Origin: Bosea sp. 124
GTDB taxonomy: Bacteria; Pseudomonadota; Alphaproteobacteria; Rhizobiales; Beijerinckiaceae
Direction: 5' to 3'
DNA length: 64,000 nucleotides
Assembly (NCBI RefSeq): GCF_003046175.1
Contig: NZ_PZZM01000001.1
Coordinates: 3,241,001-3,305,000 of the forward strand
The notes beneath the pieces were generated by a model. That model was given only the letters and a program-made list of their open reading frames with translations, was not told the origin of the DNA and did not search any database. Positions 16,947-25,836 of this stretch are shown here, in pieces. A program made the position numbers and the translations under genes. Positions within the stretch are counted from its first letter, which is position 1. Each line of letters starts with the position of its first letter.

Positions 16947-18476
16947 GGCCGATTGTGTTGAAGAAGTCGGTGTCGGCGCCATTCGTGAGGAGCACGGGAG
17001 GGGTTGTGAGAGGGCCTTCTCCCTCATGCCGCCAGAGGCGACACTCCCGACGGCATCAACTTCGCCATTCTTCTGAGGTTCTAGGCGGTGGCTGCGAGGA
17101 GGAACTCGTCGCGGGCACCGCATGGTCCTCGCAGTCTCAGGCGGTCGAGTTTAAGGATGCGTTTCAGATGCGCGAACAGCATCTCGACCTTCTTCCGTTC
17201 GCGTCGCGAGGTGACGTAGGCATCGGTGGCAGCAATGTCGCGCGCCATGTCGCGGGCGCCCTCGCGGATGGAGCGCAGAAGCTTGCGGGCAGGTTCCTTC
17301 GGACAGCAGCGCGGCTTCAGGGAGCAGGCATCGCAGTCGCGCTTCCTCGCCCTGTAGCGCATGAGGCCTTCACGATCGATGCCATCGCGCGGCACCGCGA
17401 AGCAGCGGCGGAACTGCCGAAGCTCCTGGCCGCCCGGGCAGATGTAGAGATCGCGATCATGATCATAGGCGAAGTCGGACCGGCTGAAGGTGCCGTCCCG
17501 GCGCTGGGATTTGTCGAACACAGGGATATGCGGCTCGATCCCGCGCTCGTGCACCAGCCAGGCGAGATTCTCGGCCGAGCCATAGGCTGCGTCCGCGACC
17601 AGCTTCTCGGGCCAGGTGCCGAACCTGTCCTGGGTGCGCCCGATCATGGTTCGCGCGGCGCCGACCTCGGCCTGCCGCACGGCCGTAGTCGCCTCCACGT
17701 CCATAATGACGGCATGCTTGAGGTCGATCAGATAGTTCGTCGCATAGGCGTAGAAGGCCTGCCCGCCATGGGCCGCCGTCCAGCGTGCGGCCGGGTCCGC
17801 CGGCGAGATGAACTTCGGCACGACCGGCGTCGCCGCGCCGAAGGCGGCATCGTCCAGCACGGCCAGATACTCGCGCACCGCATGGTTGGCGGCCTCAGGC
17901 GCCAACCCATCCTTGCCGGGCGCCCCGTTCTGCAGATTGGCATCGGCCTTGATCAGGCTGGCATCGACCGCAAAGCCCTCGCCACCGACCAGCCCATCCG
18001 CCATGCTCGTCGAACCGTCGTCTCGAAGACCTCGCGCAGCAGATCGCTGTCGCGGAAGAGGCCGTGCCGGTTCTTCGAGAAGGTGGAATGGTCGGGCACA
18101 TCGCCCTCGAGCCAGAGCCGGCAGAACCAGCGGTAGGCGAGGTTCAGATGGGCCTCGTCGCAAAGCCTGCGCTCGGAGCGGATGCCGAAGCAGTGGCCGA
18201 CGATCAACATCCGGATCATCAGTTCGGGATCGATCGAGGGCCGGCCGGTGTCGCTGTAGTAGGGGCGTAGATGCGCACGAATGCCGGACAGATCAACGAA
18301 GCGGTCGATGGAGCGCCGCAGGTGGCCAGCCGGGACATGCCGCTCAAGCTGAACTCGTAGAACAGTGCCTCCTGTGCAACCGTCCGCTCGCCCATCATAG
18401 CGCCGCCCTCCACAAGGACGACTGAATCAGAACCTCAAGCTCGCAGCAACACCGACTTCTTCAACAAAATCGGCCC
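16947..18476 (-). mobile_element. IS1182-type insertion sequence with degenerate transposase
   Basis: About 1.53 kb bounded by inverted ends, GGCCGATTGTGTTGAAGAAG at 16947 and its mirrored counterpart ending at 18476. The transposase (coding 18398 to 17034) belongs to a different IS1182 branch from that at 4200: MIRMLIVGHCFGIRSERRLC, GGEGFAVDASLIKADANLQN, EMLFAHLKRILKLDRLRLRG. It has frameshifts near 18347 and 18010. A TAG near 17081 replaces the CAG seen in a sister fragment at 29230. It is therefore inactive unless complemented. Confidence 0.85.
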
Positions 18477-18518: not shown

Positions 18519-18930
18519 CTACCGGTTGCCGACATCCGAGAGGTCCGATTCCGGGGGAAGCCTGGAACACCGCGCATCGTCCTGGCAATCTTTCAGCCGT
18601 CGTTGTTCGACCGCTCGATCCCGGTCGACCGGATCGTAGTCGGGGTAGCGCTGGTTGCCGAACGCGAGACTTTTGCGGGCGCCGGCAATGCGGATTAGCT
18701 TGATGCGGCGCTCACCGTTCACTGCAACGATAACGGCACCATCGCCGGCGACTACGCTTCGGTCGACCGTGATCGAGCTGCCGTCAAGGACGCCGACATC
18801 GGTGGCGCGGGCGCCGGCTACTGTCATGACGAAGGAGCGTTCTGGATCAGCGCGCGCGACAGCTCGACGGGGCATTCGGGTAGTCGTCCGCCCGCGAGGG
18901 AACCCCCGCGCATATGGCCTTCAGTTAGAA
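18519..18930 (-). pseudogene. UmuD-like (LexA/S24 peptidase) remnant
   Basis: The core reads SFVMTVAGARATDVGVLDGS then SITVDRSVVAGDGAVIVAVN then GERRIKLIRIAG, which lines up with the UmuD self-cleavage domain. The nucleophile motif G-D-S-M is G-A-R-A here, so the catalytic serine is absent, while the lysine (IKLI) remains. Upstream, the expected PADDY..ELSRALIQNA segment is split over two frames, and the C-terminus runs out of frame after RYPDYDP. No umuC is present. Looks like a decayed SOS mutagenesis gene. Confidence 0.6.
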
Positions 18931-19133
18931 GGGCAGCAACAGCGGCGGGCCGTCTCACCCGAGGCAGGGCCGCCGGCGCAGCCCTCGCCGATATCCCGGA
19001 CGCAATGAACCGCACGATTGTGGCGGATCCGGCTAATATCGTGAGATTTATACAACAGGGTAGAGTCGCCATGTTTCCGGCTCATTTTTCCACACATCCG
19101 CCTCAGAGCATCTTGATACCTCGATCCAGCAAA

Positions 19134-19306
19134 GCGGGAGAGCGTCGCAAGACCGCCGAAGGAGCAACCGCCCCGGAAACTCTCAGGCACCCGAACCGCT
19201 TGCTAAGAAGACTCTGAAAAGCGGAGCGACGCTCCCGCCCACGGTGTAAGTCGGTGTCGAGTGGTTCGGCCCGATGAAACTCTCAGGCCAATGACAGAGG
19301 GGGCTC
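19134..19306 (+). promoter_or_regulatory. Tandem glycine riboswitch
   Basis: The first aptamer (about 19134-19200) contains the family core CGCCGAAGGAGCAACC and CCCCGGAAACTCTCAGGCA, with the 5' strand GGGAGAG pairing to CTCTC. The second (about 19205-19306) has an outer stem ACTCTG...CAGAGGGGG, a second GAAACTCTCAGG core and a diverged GGTGTAAGTCGG segment. Tandem glycine aptamers normally precede gcvT or transport genes. Here the next gene, 31 bases on, is a lipoprotein L,D-transpeptidase, so glycine level should control cell-wall crosslinking enzyme synthesis. Confidence 0.9.
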
Positions 19307-19334
19307 GCGCATGTCATGCGCGGAAGGAGTTCCG
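19307..19334 (+). promoter_or_regulatory. Candidate riboswitch expression platform around the ribosome site
   Basis: Immediately after the second aptamer are two small perfect hairpins. The first is GCGCAT-GTC-ATGCGC (19307-19321). The second is CGGAA-GGAG-TTCCG (19321-19334), whose loop is the Shine-Dalgarno core itself. They share base 19321. The start codon follows at 19337. This arrangement suggests control at translation initiation rather than termination. Confidence 0.5.
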
Positions 19335-19336
19335 TC

Positions 19337-20080
19337 ATGTCTTCTACCGTCCCCCCGAGCGGCCGCGAACGTCTGCTCAGAAACCTCAAGTTCGTCGGCC
19401 TTCTGGCTGCTGCTCTGTCTAGCGCAGGATGTTCGCTGACACAGAGCGCGACCGCGCCAAGCCCGCCGGCGCTCGATCCGCAATACGTCGCGCTGTACGG
19501 TGAGATCGTCGGCGACAAGCATGTCATTGCGGCGACCGACATCTCGGTCGTGGACGACCAGTTCCTGCGCCGCGAAGTCGCTTACGATACCCGAGAGCAG
19601 CCGGGCACGGTCATCATCGATACTGAGGATCGCTTCCTGTACCTGGTGCGCGAAAACGGCAGAGCGATCCGATACGGGATTGGGGTCGGCGCGGACGGGA
19701 TGAACCTGTCGGGCCGAACGACCGTGGGACGCAAGGCGGTCTGGCCCAGTTGGACGCCGACGCTCAGCATGATCAAGCGCGATCCGATCCGTAACGCGAA
19801 ATGGGCGAAGGGAATGGCCGGGGGCGTCAACAATCCGCTCGGCCCCCGCGCGCTGTATCTCTACATAGATGGCCGCGACACCCTGTATCGCATCCACGGC
19901 ACGACCGAGCCTCACACCATCGGCGATGCGGTCTCCAGCGGTTGCATCCGGCTGCTCAATCAGGACATCATGGACCTGTTCAACCGCGTTCCCGTGGGCG
20001 CCACGGTGGTCATCGCACCGAGGAGTTCGACACGATCGGCGAACGATTCAATTGGCAGCACGGCCCTCACAACGCTCTGA
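19337..20080 (+). CDS. L,D-transpeptidase (YkuD domain) lipoprotein
   Basis: 247 aa from ATG 19337, chosen for its AAGGAG site. A lipobox (LSSAGC) near residue 30 predicts lipid anchoring in the envelope. The YkuD domain spans about 95-230 (GTVIIDTEDRFLYLVRENGR) and ends with HGTTEPHTIGDAVSSGCIRL, giving the catalytic histidine and cysteine. These enzymes make 3-3 crosslinks in peptidoglycan or exchange terminal D-amino acids, including glycine. A glycine riboswitch lies directly upstream and a strong terminator follows, so it is a single-gene transcription unit. Confidence 0.92.
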   Translation: MSSTVPPSGRERLLRNLKFVGLLAAALSSAGCSLTQSATAPSPPALDPQYVALYGEIVGDKHVIAATDISVVDDQFLRREVAYDTREQPGTVIIDTEDRFLYLVRENGRAIRYGIGVGADGMNLSGRTTVGRKAVWPSWTPTLSMIKRDPIRNAKWAKGMAGGVNNPLGPRALYLYIDGRDTLYRIHGTTEPHTIGDAVSSGCIRLLNQDIMDLFNRVPVGATVVIAPRSSTRSANDSIGSTALTTL

Positions 20081-20163: not shown

Positions 20164-20709
20164 CTACTGCTGCGTCCGTCGAAGCAACTGCTTGTCGTAG
20201 CCCATCGCGCGCGCGCGGTTGGTCAACGCTTCGTATTGCCGTGTGTCAATTTTTTGGGCGCGCGTGAGTATCCAAAGGAATTTTCCCGAAGGCTCGCCGA
20301 CCATGGACCAGGAGTAATCGTCCGCGCGGTCGAGGACCCAATAGTCGCTTTCGATCGGCCAGAAGAACGTTACCTTTAACTTTGAGCCATTTGATCCATC
20401 GACGACGCGCGCCGAAGCCTCAGCCGTCTTGAGCGGACCGTTCAAGCCGCCCTGACGGCAAGAGTTGACCACCGATAATGAGCCGTCCGGCTTTGTGGCG
20501 TAGTCGGCAGTGACACCCTCGCAGCCCTTCTGGAAGCTCGCCTCATAGCGGCCCTGCTCGTACCATTTGCCGACGTACCGGCTAAGTTTGACGGACTTGG
20601 CCGGCTGCGGGACGCTTGAGTTACCTACCGGCTGCGTCTCCAATGGATTGCAGGCGGTCAGCGTCAAGCCGGAAACCACGGCCAGCGTCATTAGGGCGAT
20701 TCGATTCAT
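20164..20709 (-). CDS. blc: Lipocalin family outer-membrane lipoprotein (Blc-like)
   Basis: 181 aa. The signal peptide ends in a lipobox (VSGLTLTAC, Cys near residue 20). The lipocalin signature GKWYEQGRYEASFQKGC follows, then strands KVTFFWPIESDYWVLDRADD and FLWILTRAQKID, and a final helix. Bacterial lipocalins are lipid-anchored barrels that bind fatty acids or lysophospholipids and are linked to envelope stress. Length and motifs are normal. It converges on the L,D-transpeptidase unit. Confidence 0.9.
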   Translation of the reverse strand: MNRIALMTLAVVSGLTLTACNPLETQPVGNSSVPQPAKSVKLSRYVGKWYEQGRYEASFQKGCEGVTADYATKPDGSLSVVNSCRQGGLNGPLKTAEASARVVDGSNGSKLKVTFFWPIESDYWVLDRADDYSWSMVGEPSGKFLWILTRAQKIDTRQYEALTNRARAMGYDKQLLRRTQQ

Positions 20710-20871: not shown

Positions 20872-23274
20872 TCAGGCCGCCAAGCGCCCCGTATCGTTTT
20901 CAATCTGAAAATCGGTCCAGCCGTTCGTTGCATGGTAGCGCCAGGCCAGACGGCCCGCATCGTCCATCGTGAACAGCGTCAGCCAGCCGTGGTCGAATAG
21001 CGCCTGGAGATCCGGATGCTTCGCGAGGACGGCGAGAATCGCCTCGCGCGGGGCGGCGATGACGACCGAGAGGCGCAGCGGTTTATGGACAAGTGCTTCA
21101 CCGTCATGGACCGACTGCCAGGGCAGCCCGCCGCGCAACAGGCCGCCATTGCCCTCGAAGACGCCGATCCCGCCGACGACGTTGTGCAGCAGCTTGTTGC
21201 CAGCGCCGAAGGCCAGCGGTGCGACGGCGGAGCCGTAATACTGCAGGCTGATCCAGCTTGCGACGACAACGGGCGCCGTCAGGATCAGCTCGAGCACCTT
21301 GAACTCGCTGTCGGCGCGCCAGTCATAGCTGTGCAGGAAGGCACGCCCCGCCAGGGAGGCCCCTGCCGTGTACCGGCGCGGCGCGGCGACGAAGGTCTTG
21401 CAGCCAGCCAGCCCCCATTCCGGCCGGACCTGAGCCCAGTCCCGGCCACGCCGGGCGACGTCGCCTTCGCCGGTCGCGCCGGGCAGGTGCAGCGCTCGCT
21501 CGGTCCGGGCGAGGCGTCCGGCGGACGCCAGCAGCGAGTCCAGCCGGGTAAGATCGGCGGCATGCGACGCCGGCAGCAACTCGGGGTCGAACAACGTGAT
21601 CTCGTCGCTGACCGTGTCGTGCAGACCCGCGACGAAACGTGTATCGGCCGGTACGTCGATCCCCTGCGCCGGGAGCCCGACGCGGACCTCGTCATCGTTC
21701 AGGAGGCAGGCCAGCAGGCGGGCGTTGACGTCGCCGGGGAAACCACCACAGGCGCCGCATTGCAGGGCGCTGGCATGGGCGTTGTTGACGAGCCGGGCGC
21801 CATGGCCTGCCAGCAGCACCAGCCGGGCGAAGCGCGAGGTCAGCGACATTGCCCGCAGTATCGTCGCCGCCATCTCGATGCGCTGCCTCGCCGTGAGCGA
21901 AGCGTCGAGCTGCGGCGCAGCCCAGTCGCCGTTCGGGCGGTGATCGGCCGTGACGGAATCGTGGAAGAGCTTCCAGAGATAGAGCGGCCCGCTAGCCTCG
22001 ACGAAGGCGAATGACGAAACTGCCGCGCGCCTGAAGCGACCCCAGGCGCGCCGGGCGCGGGCGCCGATGCGCTGCCGATCCTCGGCGGCCTCGCCGGGGG
22101 CGTCGCAGGTGAAGGAGCCGAGCCCCGGCTTCAAGAGGACCGGCAACCGCGCCTCGCCACCGACGGAGCCGAGCCTGCGATGCGAGACGCCGATGCCGAA
22201 GAACCCGGCGAAGCCCAGAGTCTCCACGCCGGGATCGAGCGATTCCAGTGCGCGGCGGATGATCTCGGAGCGGACGTCGATGCAGAAGGCGGCCTGCACC
22301 GAGGGGCGCGCCGGCGGCTCCTTCTTAGTGACGGCTGGCCGCCAGGCCGTGAAGAACCGGCGCTGCGCGGCGCGATCATAGGCTTCCTGCAGTAGCGCGT
22401 CGATGATCTGGTCGCTGCCGGGTTCGAACGGTTCGGCATGGGCTTCGATCGCCTCACGCCAAGGATCGGCGATCTGCCGCCCGAACTGCGCCTGCAGAGC
22501 CGCCTCGAAAGCGAGTGCGATCGCTAGTAGGTCGGTGATGGTCGGGTCGGTGCCGCCGTCGCGCTCCGCCTGCCAGTGCAGGTGGCGGGCATATTGCGCC
22601 CAGCCCCCGAGCCCGGTCAGGAGTGCGGTGAAATAGCACTCGGCGGCAGCTTGCGGCAGGCCGAGCGCAAGGCTTGCGCGCCTGATCGCTGCCGGGGCAG
22701 CGAGCGGTTCCCGCGAGATGCGCAGGCAGAAGCCCTTCAGCCCCGCGATCTCGGGCGAGAGATCCTGGGTGGCAAAGGCGCGCCAGGATTCATAGGCGCC
22801 GGTCGCCGCGGTCTTTGGCCAGATCGCCTGGCCGAGATCGAAATGGCCCGACGCCCATGCGCCGATCCGGTCCGCGATAAAGCCGGGCCAGTCGATGCCG
22901 GTGGCGTCGGCGCAGAGCGCGGCGACGGTCGGGATCGGGGCTACGGGCGCCGGGTCCTCGGCGAGCGCCGCCTCGACCGCAGCGAGACCGGGCGCGCCCG
23001 GACGGTCGACGATGGCAGCGGCAAGATCGGCCGGCGTGATCTCACCCGCCCACCAGCGCTCCCGGTAGAAGCTGCGCGGCATGGTGACGGGGATGCCGCC
23101 GGCCCGGCCGAGGCGCGCCGCCGCGCCGGGCAGCGTCTCCCCTGCGAGGCCGAGGAATGGGTTGACAGCGACAGAGGCCGAGAGCGGCCAGAGTGGCGGG
23201 ATGATGCGGGCGGCGCGATCGGCCTGCGTCAACAGGGTAGCCTGCAGGGCGTCATGTCCGGGCTGCGCGTTCAT
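20872..23274 (-). CDS. dabA: DabA, inorganic carbon accumulation protein (DUF2309)
   Basis: 800 aa from ATG 23274 (MNAQPGHDALQ), which overlaps the dabB stop as ATGA. A longer in-frame start would read through dabB and is rejected. The zinc-site segments of the carbonic anhydrase-like domain are present: AFCIDVRSEIIRRALE (Cys and Asp) and HGARLVNNAHASALQCGACG (His and Cys). With the membrane partner DabB it forms a complex that hydrates CO2 and traps bicarbonate in the cytoplasm using the ion gradient. A complete gene in a two-gene operon. Confidence 0.93.
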   Translation of the reverse strand: MNAQPGHDALQATLLTQADRAARIIPPLWPLSASVAVNPFLGLAGETLPGAAARLGRAGGIPVTMPRSFYRERWWAGEITPADLAAAIVDRPGAPGLAAVEAALAEDPAPVAPIPTVAALCADATGIDWPGFIADRIGAWASGHFDLGQAIWPKTAATGAYESWRAFATQDLSPEIAGLKGFCLRISREPLAAPAAIRRASLALGLPQAAAECYFTALLTGLGGWAQYARHLHWQAERDGGTDPTITDLLAIALAFEAALQAQFGRQIADPWREAIEAHAEPFEPGSDQIIDALLQEAYDRAAQRRFFTAWRPAVTKKEPPARPSVQAAFCIDVRSEIIRRALESLDPGVETLGFAGFFGIGVSHRRLGSVGGEARLPVLLKPGLGSFTCDAPGEAAEDRQRIGARARRAWGRFRRAAVSSFAFVEASGPLYLWKLFHDSVTADHRPNGDWAAPQLDASLTARQRIEMAATILRAMSLTSRFARLVLLAGHGARLVNNAHASALQCGACGGFPGDVNARLLACLLNDDEVRVGLPAQGIDVPADTRFVAGLHDTVSDEITLFDPELLPASHAADLTRLDSLLASAGRLARTERALHLPGATGEGDVARRGRDWAQVRPEWGLAGCKTFVAAPRRYTAGASLAGRAFLHSYDWRADSEFKVLELILTAPVVVASWISLQYYGSAVAPLAFGAGNKLLHNVVGGIGVFEGNGGLLRGGLPWQSVHDGEALVHKPLRLSVVIAAPREAILAVLAKHPDLQALFDHGWLTLFTMDDAGRLAWRYHATNGWTDFQIENDTGRLAA

Positions 23275-24905
23275 GACGGGCTCCTTTCGCTGGTCGGGAG
23301 CGAAGGTTTGGGCCGCGCCCAGCCGCCGGTGAAGCGGTCGAAGATGGCGTTGCCGTAGAAGCCGTTGGCGAGATGGACGCGCAGCCCGGCCAGGGCCGGG
23401 TGGCCCGCCCAGTGCGGAAACAGCGCCTGGGCGAAGGCGACGCCGCCGAAGGAGAGCAGCGTCAGCACGATGAGCGCCCATTCCAGCGCCGTCGGCGGCG
23501 GGATCGGCGGCAGCGTCGCCGAGGTCAGCCACTGCGCGAAGCGCTGGAGCAGGAAGTAGGAGAGCGAGGCGGCGATGGCCGCCGCCGATGTCCGCAGGGT
23601 GAGTGCGCGTGGCGCGGAGTCGGCCAGGCCCTGTGCGATCAGATAAGCGACGCCGAAGACGAGGATGGCGCCGAGCGCGATCGCCTGCGGCGACTTCTCA
23701 GCGAAGCCGAAGCCCAGCCCGAGCAGGCCGTAGAGCGCCAGCGCAAAGGCGAAGGACTGCGCGACGACGCGAATGCCGGCCACCGCGACCGGCCCCGGGC
23801 GGCGCGTGGCCGCGACCTGCTCCACTGCCCAGCCCGAGGACAGGAAGGCATGGGCCTTGTAGAGGGAGTGGGCGACGATGTGCAGCAGCGCCAGCGGGAA
23901 GAGCGCCAGCCCGCATTGCAGCACCATGAAGCCCATCTGCGCCACCGTGGACCAGGCCAGCGAGGTCTTGATCGCGGACTGGGTCAGCATCACCAGACTA
24001 CCGAGCAGGGCGGTGAACCCGCCGATCAGCACCAGCGCCGCCAGCGCGCGCGGCGTCGTTAGCAGCAAATCGGCGAATCGGATCAGCAGGAAGCCACCGG
24101 CATTGATGATGCCGGCATGCAGCAGGGCCGAGACCGGCGTCGGCGCCTCCATCACCTCCACCAGCCAGCCATGGGCCGGGAACTGCGCCGATTTCAGCAG
24201 CGCCGCCGTCACCAGCAGCGCGACCGCCCAGCCCGTCCCGACTGGCACCGGGCCGCTAAGGGCCTGCGCCAGCATCGCGCCGATGTCGCCTGTGCCGTAG
24301 CCCGCGAACAGGACGAGGCAGGCCAGCAGCAGCGCCGCATCCGCCAGCCGAGCGACGACGAATTTCTTGCGGGTCGCCCGCTGCGCCGCCGGCCGCGATG
24401 GATAAAACAGCAGCAGCCGGCGCAGGCAGATGCTGGTCGCGATCCAGGCCCCGAGAAGCTGGAGCAGGTTGCCGGCGCAAACGAGCAGGAGCGCGGCGGC
24501 GAGCGTGGCGCAGATCCAGCCGGTGAAGCGCGTCTGCCCCGGTTCGCCGGCGAGATAGCTGCGGCTGAAGCGCAGGACGACCCAGCCGACGAAGCCGATT
24601 AGCAACAGCATGGTGACGCTGACGATGTCGAGGCGCACGGATAGGCCGAGGCCGCGGGGGGCGAGCAGCGTCAGCGTCGCGGGTCCCGACAGAGCGAGCT
24701 GGACGGCCGCCCCGAGGGCCACGACCAGCGCCAGCGCCGCGGCGATCTCCGCCAGCGGCCCCTGCCCCTTCGCCGGCGACGCCTCGCGGTGCAGCAGGAA
24801 CAGAGCCTTCGCAGCAAAAATTGCCGGGGCGAGAAGCGGGAGCGCGAGATGGGGCACGGCGAGGCTCACGGGCTGGCTGATCTCGCACCGCAATAACACC
24901 GACAC
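23271..24905 (-). CDS. dabB: DabB, NuoL/MrpA-like membrane subunit for carbon uptake
   Basis: 544-aa polytopic protein of the proton-conducting NuoL/MrpA family with 13-14 helices. The conserved channel segment LLKSAQFPAHGWLVEVMEAP then TPVSALLHAGIINAGG carries the lysine and histidine used for proton conduction. It is directly coupled to dabA (ATGA overlap), which identifies it as DabB rather than a complex I subunit. The start is uncertain (GTG 24905 or an internal GTG). The divergent LysR gene begins 52 bases away. Confidence 0.9.
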   Translation of the reverse strand: MSVLLRCEISQPVSLAVPHLALPLLAPAIFAAKALFLLHREASPAKGQGPLAEIAAALALVVALGAAVQLALSGPATLTLLAPRGLGLSVRLDIVSVTMLLLIGFVGWVVLRFSRSYLAGEPGQTRFTGWICATLAAALLLVCAGNLLQLLGAWIATSICLRRLLLFYPSRPAAQRATRKKFVVARLADAALLLACLVLFAGYGTGDIGAMLAQALSGPVPVGTGWAVALLVTAALLKSAQFPAHGWLVEVMEAPTPVSALLHAGIINAGGFLLIRFADLLLTTPRALAALVLIGGFTALLGSLVMLTQSAIKTSLAWSTVAQMGFMVLQCGLALFPLALLHIVAHSLYKAHAFLSSGWAVEQVAATRRPGPVAVAGIRVVAQSFAFALALYGLLGLGFGFAEKSPQAIALGAILVFGVAYLIAQGLADSAPRALTLRTSAAAIAASLSYFLLQRFAQWLTSATLPPIPPPTALEWALIVLTLLSFGGVAFAQALFPHWAGHPALAGLRVHLANGFYGNAIFDRFTGGWARPKPSLPTSERSPS

Positions 24906-24939
24906 TGACGCGCTAAAAATTCATTGTTTGCGCTATTCC

Positions 24940-24956
24940 GTTCGCTATGATCGAAC
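24940..24956. promoter_or_regulatory. Putative LysR operator in the dabB-regulator intergenic region
   Basis: A perfect inverted repeat GTTCG-CTATGAT-CGAAC contains the T-N11-A pattern typical of LysR sites (T24942, A24954). It touches the start codon of the regulator, so binding could repress the regulator and act on dabB. Confidence 0.5.
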
Positions 24957-24957
24957 G

Positions 24958-25836
24958 ATGTCTGGGCTGAACTACAATCATCTGCGCTATTTCTGGATGG
25001 TCGCGCGGGAGGGGCATCTCGGGCGCGCTGCCCAGCGCCTCAACCTGACGCAGTCGGCCCTATCCGTGCAGATCAAGCGGCTCGAGGGGCAACTCGGCCA
25101 CCGGCTGTTCGAGCGCGCTGGGCGCGGCCTGCTCCTAACCGAGGCCGGACGGATCGCCCGCGACCATGCCGACATCATCTTCGCCACGGGGAATGATCTA
25201 CTCGGCACATTGCGCGAGAGCGGCCTGTCGCGGCATGTGCTACGCGTCGGCGCGCAGGCGACACTGTCGCGCAATTTCCAGCTCGCCTTCCTGCGCCCGA
25301 TCCTGGGTCGGCCGGATGTCGAGGTCGTTTTGAAATCAGGCGCGACCCCGGAGCTCCTGCGCGCGCTCGGCGCCCATCAGCTCGATGCGGTGCTGACCAA
25401 CCAGCCGCCGGCCGCCGACCCCGAGCGCGCCTTCCTCACCCACAAGCTGGCGGAGCAGCCGGTCAGCTTGGTCGGCCGTCACGATCTGGTGGCGGAGGCC
25501 GGAGGCTTCGAAAACCTTCTTGCGCGCCAGACGGTAATCCTGCCGCCGCTCCACAGCGGTCTGCGCGACGACATCGACGCGCTGGTCAACCGGACCGGTA
25601 TCAGGCTGCGGATCGCCGCCGAGGTCGACGACATGGCGATGATGCGCCTTCTGGTGCGTGAAGGCATTGGCCTCGGCGTGCTCCCGCCCATCGTGATCCA
25701 GGACGAGCTTTCGCAGGGGCTTCTCGCAATCGGAGCGGCGCTGCCTGGAATTGTCGAGCGCTTCTATGCCGTAACAATCGCTCGCAGATTCCCAAACAAT
25801 CTGCTGAAAGATCTTCTGTTCAGGCAGATGCAATAG
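24958..25836 (+). CDS. LysR-family regulator, likely of dabAB
   Basis: 292 aa from ATG 24958. The N-terminal winged helix-turn-helix (LNYNHLRYFWMVAREGHLGR, AAQRLNLTQSALSVQIKRLE) is of the NhaR-like LysR subgroup. The C-terminal two-lobed effector domain (ATLSRNFQLAFLRPILGRPD; IGLGVLPPIVIQDELSQGLL) is complete. A longer frame upstream to 24610 would run inside dabB antisense and is rejected. Divergent placement next to dabB is the standard regulator-target arrangement. The effector is unknown; a carbon-status or pH signal is plausible by context. Confidence 0.88.
   Translation: MSGLNYNHLRYFWMVAREGHLGRAAQRLNLTQSALSVQIKRLEGQLGHRLFERAGRGLLLTEAGRIARDHADIIFATGNDLLGTLRESGLSRHVLRVGAQATLSRNFQLAFLRPILGRPDVEVVLKSGATPELLRALGAHQLDAVLTNQPPAADPERAFLTHKLAEQPVSLVGRHDLVAEAGGFENLLARQTVILPPLHSGLRDDIDALVNRTGIRLRIAAEVDDMAMMRLLVREGIGLGVLPPIVIQDELSQGLLAIGAALPGIVERFYAVTIARRFPNNLLKDLLFRQMQ

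Follow-up and report, generated by a model that had tools for sequence, protein, structure and literature searches.

A tandem glycine riboswitch probably driving an L,D-transpeptidase gene in Bosea sp. 124, and its patchy recurrence in Hyphomicrobiales

Within a 64,000-nucleotide stretch of the Bosea sp. 124 genome (hereafter the window), we found a tandem glycine riboswitch that probably drives a gene for a YkuD L,D-transpeptidase (LDT), most likely as a glycine ON switch, and that would belong to a patchily distributed set of glycine-regulon units in Hyphomicrobiales that serve the cell envelope. The riboswitch and the gene and leader that accompany it are as follows, in window coordinates:

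19125..19208, plus strand: glycine riboswitch aptamer 1 (Infernal, RF00504, 58.3 bits, gathering score 32, E 1.8e-9)
19212..19299, plus strand: glycine riboswitch aptamer 2, a weak match (Infernal search of 601 bases, RF00504, 31.9 bits, E 1.6e-4)
19300..19336, plus strand: leader and presumed expression platform, the hairpin CGCGCATGTCATGCGCG followed by GGAAGGAG (from sequence and folding)
19337..20080, plus strand: YkuD L,D-transpeptidase, perhaps a lipoprotein, 247 aa (PF03734, 4.3e-21)
20164..20709, strand opposite to the LDT: lipocalin (PF08212)

Aptamer 1 was the sole Rfam match above gathering in the 64-kb window, and aptamer 2 scored 0.1 bit under the gathering score of RF00504. The two glycine aptamer cores claimed by the initial annotation were borne out by these scores, obtained through the RF00504 search of the aptamer region that it had itself proposed as a check; its extent of 19134-19306 does hold the tandem, with boundaries that move to approximately 19125-19299, and its spacing of about 31 bases between aptamers and gene was right. 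Both aptamers share one leader, 5' of the same-strand open reading frame that begins at 19337. Aptamer 1 could be aligned to the core conserved in 14 relatives, and the aptamer 2 core GAAAAG...GGTGTAAG...CTCTCAGGCCAATGACAGAG resembles, in an alignment judged by eye, those of other LDT, PBP1A and dadA riboswitches. A chance match was rejected on the RF00504 scores of both aptamers and their recurrence in other genomes. Only one other RF00504 pair was found in this genome, a single 5.47 Mb contig, and it lies before gcvT (G000:C1:502645-502856(-)). Upstream of the window riboswitch no sigma-70-like promoter was found, and the one terminator-like site detected was at chance level.

The designation of the downstream gene as a YkuD protein was upheld by its PF03734 match (76.5 bits, cut-off 23.4), and its description as a single-gene unit fits the opposite orientation of the lipocalin gene that follows. 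The longest reading frame spans 19316-20080; by eye, the most likely start is ATG 19337, because GGAAGGAG directly precedes it and ATG 19316 falls inside the leader hairpin in folds. The stretch IHGTTEPHTIGDAVSSGCIRLLNQD, read by eye as the catalytic Cys/His stretch in the translation, aligns to 6v45, the best sequence match in the PDB, and holds what we take to be the catalytic Cys/His motif of YkuD enzymes; SSGCIRLLNQD is presumably the active-site stretch, and the N-terminal LSSAGC may be a lipobox, if we assign these motifs correctly. LdtE-like NCBIfam models matched far under their cut-offs. The closest proteins were from metagenomes (79-89% identity, one a fragment), followed by Microvirga LDTs. 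Upstream of the riboswitch lie an IS1182-like transposase remnant (17081-18163, under the NCBIfam cut-off, approximately 1 kb away) and, just upstream, a weak UmuD/S24-like match (18519-18875), as would fit a stretch that is mobile or has been rearranged. Elsewhere in the window, at 20872-25836, the minus strand encodes DabA (PF10070) and a proton-antiporter subunit (PF00361) and the plus strand a LysR regulator, an arrangement that resembles a DAB inorganic-carbon uptake set.

The usual explanation of glycine riboswitches lies in the catabolism and transport of glycine. RF00504 matches were present in 58 of the 61 genomes surveyed (the window's own and 60 relatives), and the 30 best riboswitch loci by score in this survey all preceded gcvT. 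The RF00504 model was run on these 61 genomes and on four more reached through named loci; wider scans used DNA similarity or a single signature, which find near relatives of the query, so that the locus counts from such scans are lower bounds. Extra tandems in Bosea lay before a DadA-like D-amino-acid dehydrogenase (G007, G017 and G026) or a related oxidoreductase (G028), and a DadA-like gene followed the riboswitch in all 10 further Bosea loci examined, the names being assigned by eye or by tblastn, with the G026 protein above the NF009074 cut-off. By eye, the window riboswitch resembles this Bosea dadA sub-type. A leftover dadA switch captured in this genome alone was considered unlikely, since other genomes also have the LDT unit, with LDTs from the window's clade.

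Among 30 loci drawn from 297 family genomes, chosen for likeness to the Microvirga LDT riboswitch and including some of the Bosea loci already counted, 19 preceded dadA, eight LDT, two gcvT and one none of the reference genes. An order-wide scan with one 24-base stretch of this sub-type (up to two mismatches) returned at least 28 sites in 26 of 397 genomes, followed by gcvT (n = 11), dadA (n = 10), LDT (n = 4; the window, G519, G596 and G688), a class A penicillin-binding protein (PBP; n = 1) and, by eye, a gcvP-like gene (n = 1) and an AgcS-like symporter (n = 1). Loci of the dadA type in this sub-type (L066, L068, L070, L156-L165, L234-L251 and L253) occur in many Hyphomicrobiales, and genes named by eye as an SdaA-like serine dehydratase (G046, L074) and an AgcS-like symporter (G641, L321) were also observed behind a riboswitch. 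A full-text search, with few subscription journals, found no paper joining 'glycine riboswitch' with 'D-amino acid dehydrogenase'.

Riboswitch and LDT occur together in seven lineages, and the LDTs concerned fall into three clades. Microvirga carries a riboswitch followed by LDT in at least 10 of 48 genomes (11 loci), genome G392 has the riboswitch directly before LDT as in the window, and Methylobacterium-type loci (n = 3) occur in two genomes, G384 (two loci) and G372 (Leaf118), one of the G384 LDTs being 93% identical to that of Methylobacterium nigriterrae. Three other families are represented by G519, G596 and G688, each with riboswitch and LDT; the G519 LDT is identical to that of Lutibaculum baratangense, the G688 LDT is identical to that of Agaricicola taiwanensis, and G596 is an Amorphaceae-like genome. 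Further signature sites were sought with the one signature in the families of Lutibaculum (8 genomes), G596 (10 genomes) and Agaricicola (18 genomes), and none was found. In Methylobacterium and Microvirga the gap between riboswitch and LDT holds a short reading frame or a long spacer. The intervening frame has 29 codons in five Microvirga loci (L106 4818-4907, L207, L210, L211 and L215), another length elsewhere in Microvirga and, by eye, four codons in the three Methylobacterium-type loci. In G384, a second RF00504 match (L256 10461-10550, 50.7 bits) lies 3 kb upstream of the riboswitch-LDT unit, with no clear gene behind it.

Most LDT genes lack the switch. Among 50 LDT loci of the homologue set, only that of Microvirga guangxiensis, the best named LDT locus (60% identity), had a riboswitch, an RF00504 match just upstream, and an Rfam run on nine of these loci agreed; in the other set of 30 LDT loci only the window's had one. 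The placement of a glycine sensor to serve a wall crosslinker, as first proposed from the window, gains comparative support from the pair in seven lineages, from sister switches before PBP1A and Pal-PBP1A and from the 93% conservation described below, and is weakened by the 49 of 50 and 29 of 30 LDT loci without a switch.

Tree rows were BLAST segments from hand-chosen loci that spanned 140 or more residues of the query, with identical rows removed. In the first tree (84 rows, including L058, which is labelled Bosea and belongs to another family), the clade of the window LDT had a support of 95, and the riboswitch-LDTs needed two changes. For the second tree (62 rows), the Bosea rows were thinned to one in three and the Microvirga rows to one in two, L118, L126 and L131 were removed because of their long branches, and three riboswitch-LDTs were included together with nine database proteins not assigned either way as to a riboswitch. 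Here, the window, G392 and 11 Microvirga riboswitch-LDTs formed one clade (100/97), with the window beside G392 (99/86), and the Methylobacterium LDTs and the Lutibaculum, Agaricicola and G596 LDTs lay elsewhere, giving three places for riboswitch-LDTs and three required changes. The three clades may represent separate captures or one old origin with losses, the tree fitting both. We infer that the window copy was acquired horizontally, the donor being a Microvirga-like lineage.

Across the 11 Microvirga loci the riboswitch is the best conserved part, with a mean pairwise identity of 0.93 and 149 of 191 columns invariant, compared to 0.86 for the 39 bases after it, 0.64 for the spacer, 0.52 upstream and 0.83 for the LDT part (521 columns). 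An arrangement that arose by rearrangement in the window only was rejected in view of the Microvirga and G392 units. That the riboswitch is instead a non-functional relic, stranded beside the LDT by rearrangement in this one genome, is very improbable: its restriction to one of 67 Bosea genomes (the window's own) among the matches listed, the nearby transposase remnant, itself below its NCBIfam cut-off, and an aptamer 2 just under its cut-off would fit such an origin, against which stand the same pair with same-clade LDT in Microvirga and G392 and the alignment of the window riboswitch with the conserved core of its 14 relatives. G110 offers a contrast. Its riboswitch (L217 6575-6765) has PBP1A fragments and a transporter homologue beside it and no LDT behind, and by eye its core is altered at several conserved places; this is a hint only, because aptamer 1 of G110 retains a score of 46.2 bits, not far from the 48.9 bits of G392.

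Sister riboswitches also precede a second class of wall enzyme. In Microvirga, a class A PBP (PBP1A) follows the riboswitch in at least 13 of 48 genomes (G091, G096, G099, G107, G111, G112, G119, G126, G130, G131, G132, G134 and G140), called by match to the M. guangxiensis protein, with the G132 protein above the TIGR02074 cut-off, the G099 match covering the first 64 residues only and the G140 match split over frames. A Pal-like lipoprotein stands between riboswitch and PBP1A in G131 (above the TIGR02802 cut-off) and G111 (76% match), so that two Microvirga genomes hold the following row:

L218 7411-10951, and L222: riboswitch, Pal-like lipoprotein and PBP1A

The riboswitch is present with PBP1A remnant or absent in G101 and G116, PBP1A occurs without a detected riboswitch in G108, and G632, from another family, carries a class A PBP gene behind a riboswitch. 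Seven Microvirga loci (L218-L224) have an LDT from another clade immediately upstream of riboswitch-PBP1A, and in G134 two riboswitch-like matches separated by a run of N precede PBP1A (L213 6404-6786).

Homologues of the Pfam 'Glycine transporter' (PF03458) form a further neighbour. In loci of 3 to 19 kb, tblastn detected one in 10 of 19 riboswitch-LDT loci, with the family checked on the G596 protein, and 10 of the 14 loci classed as riboswitch-PBP have one on the same strand; of these 14, L217, L259 and L261 (G110, G116 and G101) hold at most PBP1A remnants and those of G099 and G140 are broken. The homologue lies behind the LDT in five riboswitch-LDT loci and, in five others from Microvirga, ahead of the riboswitch. 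The LDT could thus be a passenger, caught between a transporter gene and the riboswitch that first controlled it, with the window having since lost the transporter and kept the other two. The order riboswitch-LDT-transporter in both G384 loci, G372, G596 and G519, and the transporter homologue close upstream of the unit in the five Microvirga loci, speak for this reading, which we nevertheless consider unlikely: tblastn of the 11 kb around the window LDT and the 14 kb around that of G392 gave no transporter homologue, the riboswitch is 93% identical before the Microvirga LDT although the transporter, where found, lies on the far side of the riboswitch, and PBP1A genes too have sister riboswitches ahead of them. 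The alternatives weighed here overlap, and the probabilities attached to them need not sum to one.

Under the preferred reading, in which the riboswitch drives the LDT, an ON response is expected because aptamer 1 is the one that scores in LDT loci (12 of 12 riboswitch-LDT loci, compared to 1 of 12 for aptamer 2) and because the accessible sections of PMC6944388 tie a better-conserved aptamer 1 to gcv switches. These gcv glycine switches are ON switches in the accessible sections of PMC11477304. The weakness of aptamer 2 is not special to LDT, because the same survey also missed it in one of two gcvT, two of three dadA and three of three PBP loci; most gcvT tandems of the 61-genome survey score in both aptamers. 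The aptamer 1 bias, a feature of the sequences, therefore points only weakly to an ON switch.

Folding of the leader bears on the same question. When P1 of aptamer 2 is forced in the window fold, the start codon becomes free, two of its three bases going from approximately 0.1 to 0.7-0.9 unpaired, and our guess from this model is that the start codon would be masked without glycine. The competing leader helix in the window was no better than in shuffled controls, 131 of 300 shuffles being as strong. Corresponding counts of 300 were 33 for G392, 65 for Agaricicola, 38 for G596, 108 and 14 for the two G384 loci (G384a and G384b), 209 for M. guangxiensis, 123 for the PBP1A leader, 107 for dadA of G301, 3 for Lutibaculum, 7 for Leaf118 and 2 for Bosea dadA. 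The shuffle control thus backs a predicted competing helix in Lutibaculum, Leaf118, G384b and Bosea dadA, and not in the other eight leaders. Class means of Shine-Dalgarno accessibility were nearly constant except for a drop in five gcvT leaders, in a class-wide folding that used a wrong start codon for the window, whereas the window fold and the shuffle test used 19337.

The reverse direction, with the LDT repressed at high glycine as in glycine symporter genes, appears improbable, more so than the passenger origin. Glycine riboswitches of AGCS transporters are OFF switches in the accessible sections of PMC11477304, and transporter homologues lie in the same neighbourhood as the LDT units. 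Set against this, aptamer 1 rather than aptamer 2 scores, unlike the transporter switches in the portions of PMC6944388 available, and in the fold the window start codon is released once P1 of aptamer 2 is forced, though shuffled leaders compete as well.

How such an ON switch could serve the cell may be sketched as follows. LDTs join or edit peptidoglycan stems through the third residue. A rise in free glycine would most likely switch on the LDT, as a single-gene unit driven by a riboswitch of the kind otherwise found before gcvT and dadA. Glycine would replace alanine in the stems and leave poor substrates for the usual enzymes, and an LDT that crosslinks or edits at the third residue could prevent the wall from losing its links, and a larger supply of PBP1A could help in the same way. 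Consistent with this, the accessible sections of PMC5666159 and PMC11477304 describe excess glycine as misincorporated into cell walls and the modified precursors as poor substrates. Other putative members of the branch would be the class A PBP (PBP1A), the Pal-like lipoprotein and the 'glycine transporter' homologues. We infer for the window RNA a response to glycine, its ON direction and a role in protection against glycine damage. The wider proposal, which we hold at even chances, is of a glycine-sensing envelope regulon in Hyphomicrobiales in which one riboswitch sub-type turns on LDT, class A PBP, Pal-like lipoprotein, glycine transporter and probably D-amino-acid dehydrogenase, as a coordinated peptidoglycan defence against misincorporated glycine, passed from genus to genus in the form of riboswitch-gene units.

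The circuit had been put forward as one not known to be described, and we likewise found no paper describing a glycine riboswitch-LDT pairing. A full-text search, with few subscription journals, returned none that joins 'glycine riboswitch' with 'transpeptidase'; no link of a glycine riboswitch to peptidoglycan genes was found in the accessible sections of PMC6944388, PMC5666159, PMC11477304 and PMC11109978, nor, among the papers listed, one to penicillin-binding protein genes or one between a riboswitch and a D-transpeptidase, PMC9239193 not joining the two in its accessible sections. In a regulon study of 255 genomes, 15 of them Rhizobiales, the genes behind glycine riboswitches belong to glycine metabolism, glycine transport and serine metabolism, and the sole cell-wall mention concerns ydaO-yuaA, as far as the accessible sections go (PMC3766115). 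The ydaO-yuaA riboswitch likewise stands ahead of wall enzymes, in the form of cell-wall remodelling genes, but is another RNA, for which its authors suggest osmoregulation (accessible sections of PMC3766115). Compared to RF00504 riboswitches before gcvT and AGCS transporter genes, the window unit is alike in RNA family, tandem layout and 5' position, whereas the target there is glycine catabolism or transport and here a peptidoglycan enzyme. That ydaO-yuaA RNA binds c-di-AMP. The window LDT shares its catalytic domain, above the Pfam cut-off, with YkuD L,D-transpeptidases (PF03734) and differs from them in standing behind a glycine riboswitch, the enzyme, with any 3-3 crosslinking activity, being predicted from sequence. 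The RNA is therefore known, and its target class appears to be new.

Damage to the cell wall is the usual reason given for glycine removal. If the proposed circuit is true, with glycine switches acting directly on two different crosslinking enzymes, some bacteria would in addition mend the wall itself or build it by another route, and the survival of cells with glycine in their peptidoglycan, a long-standing question, would become testable on one leader.
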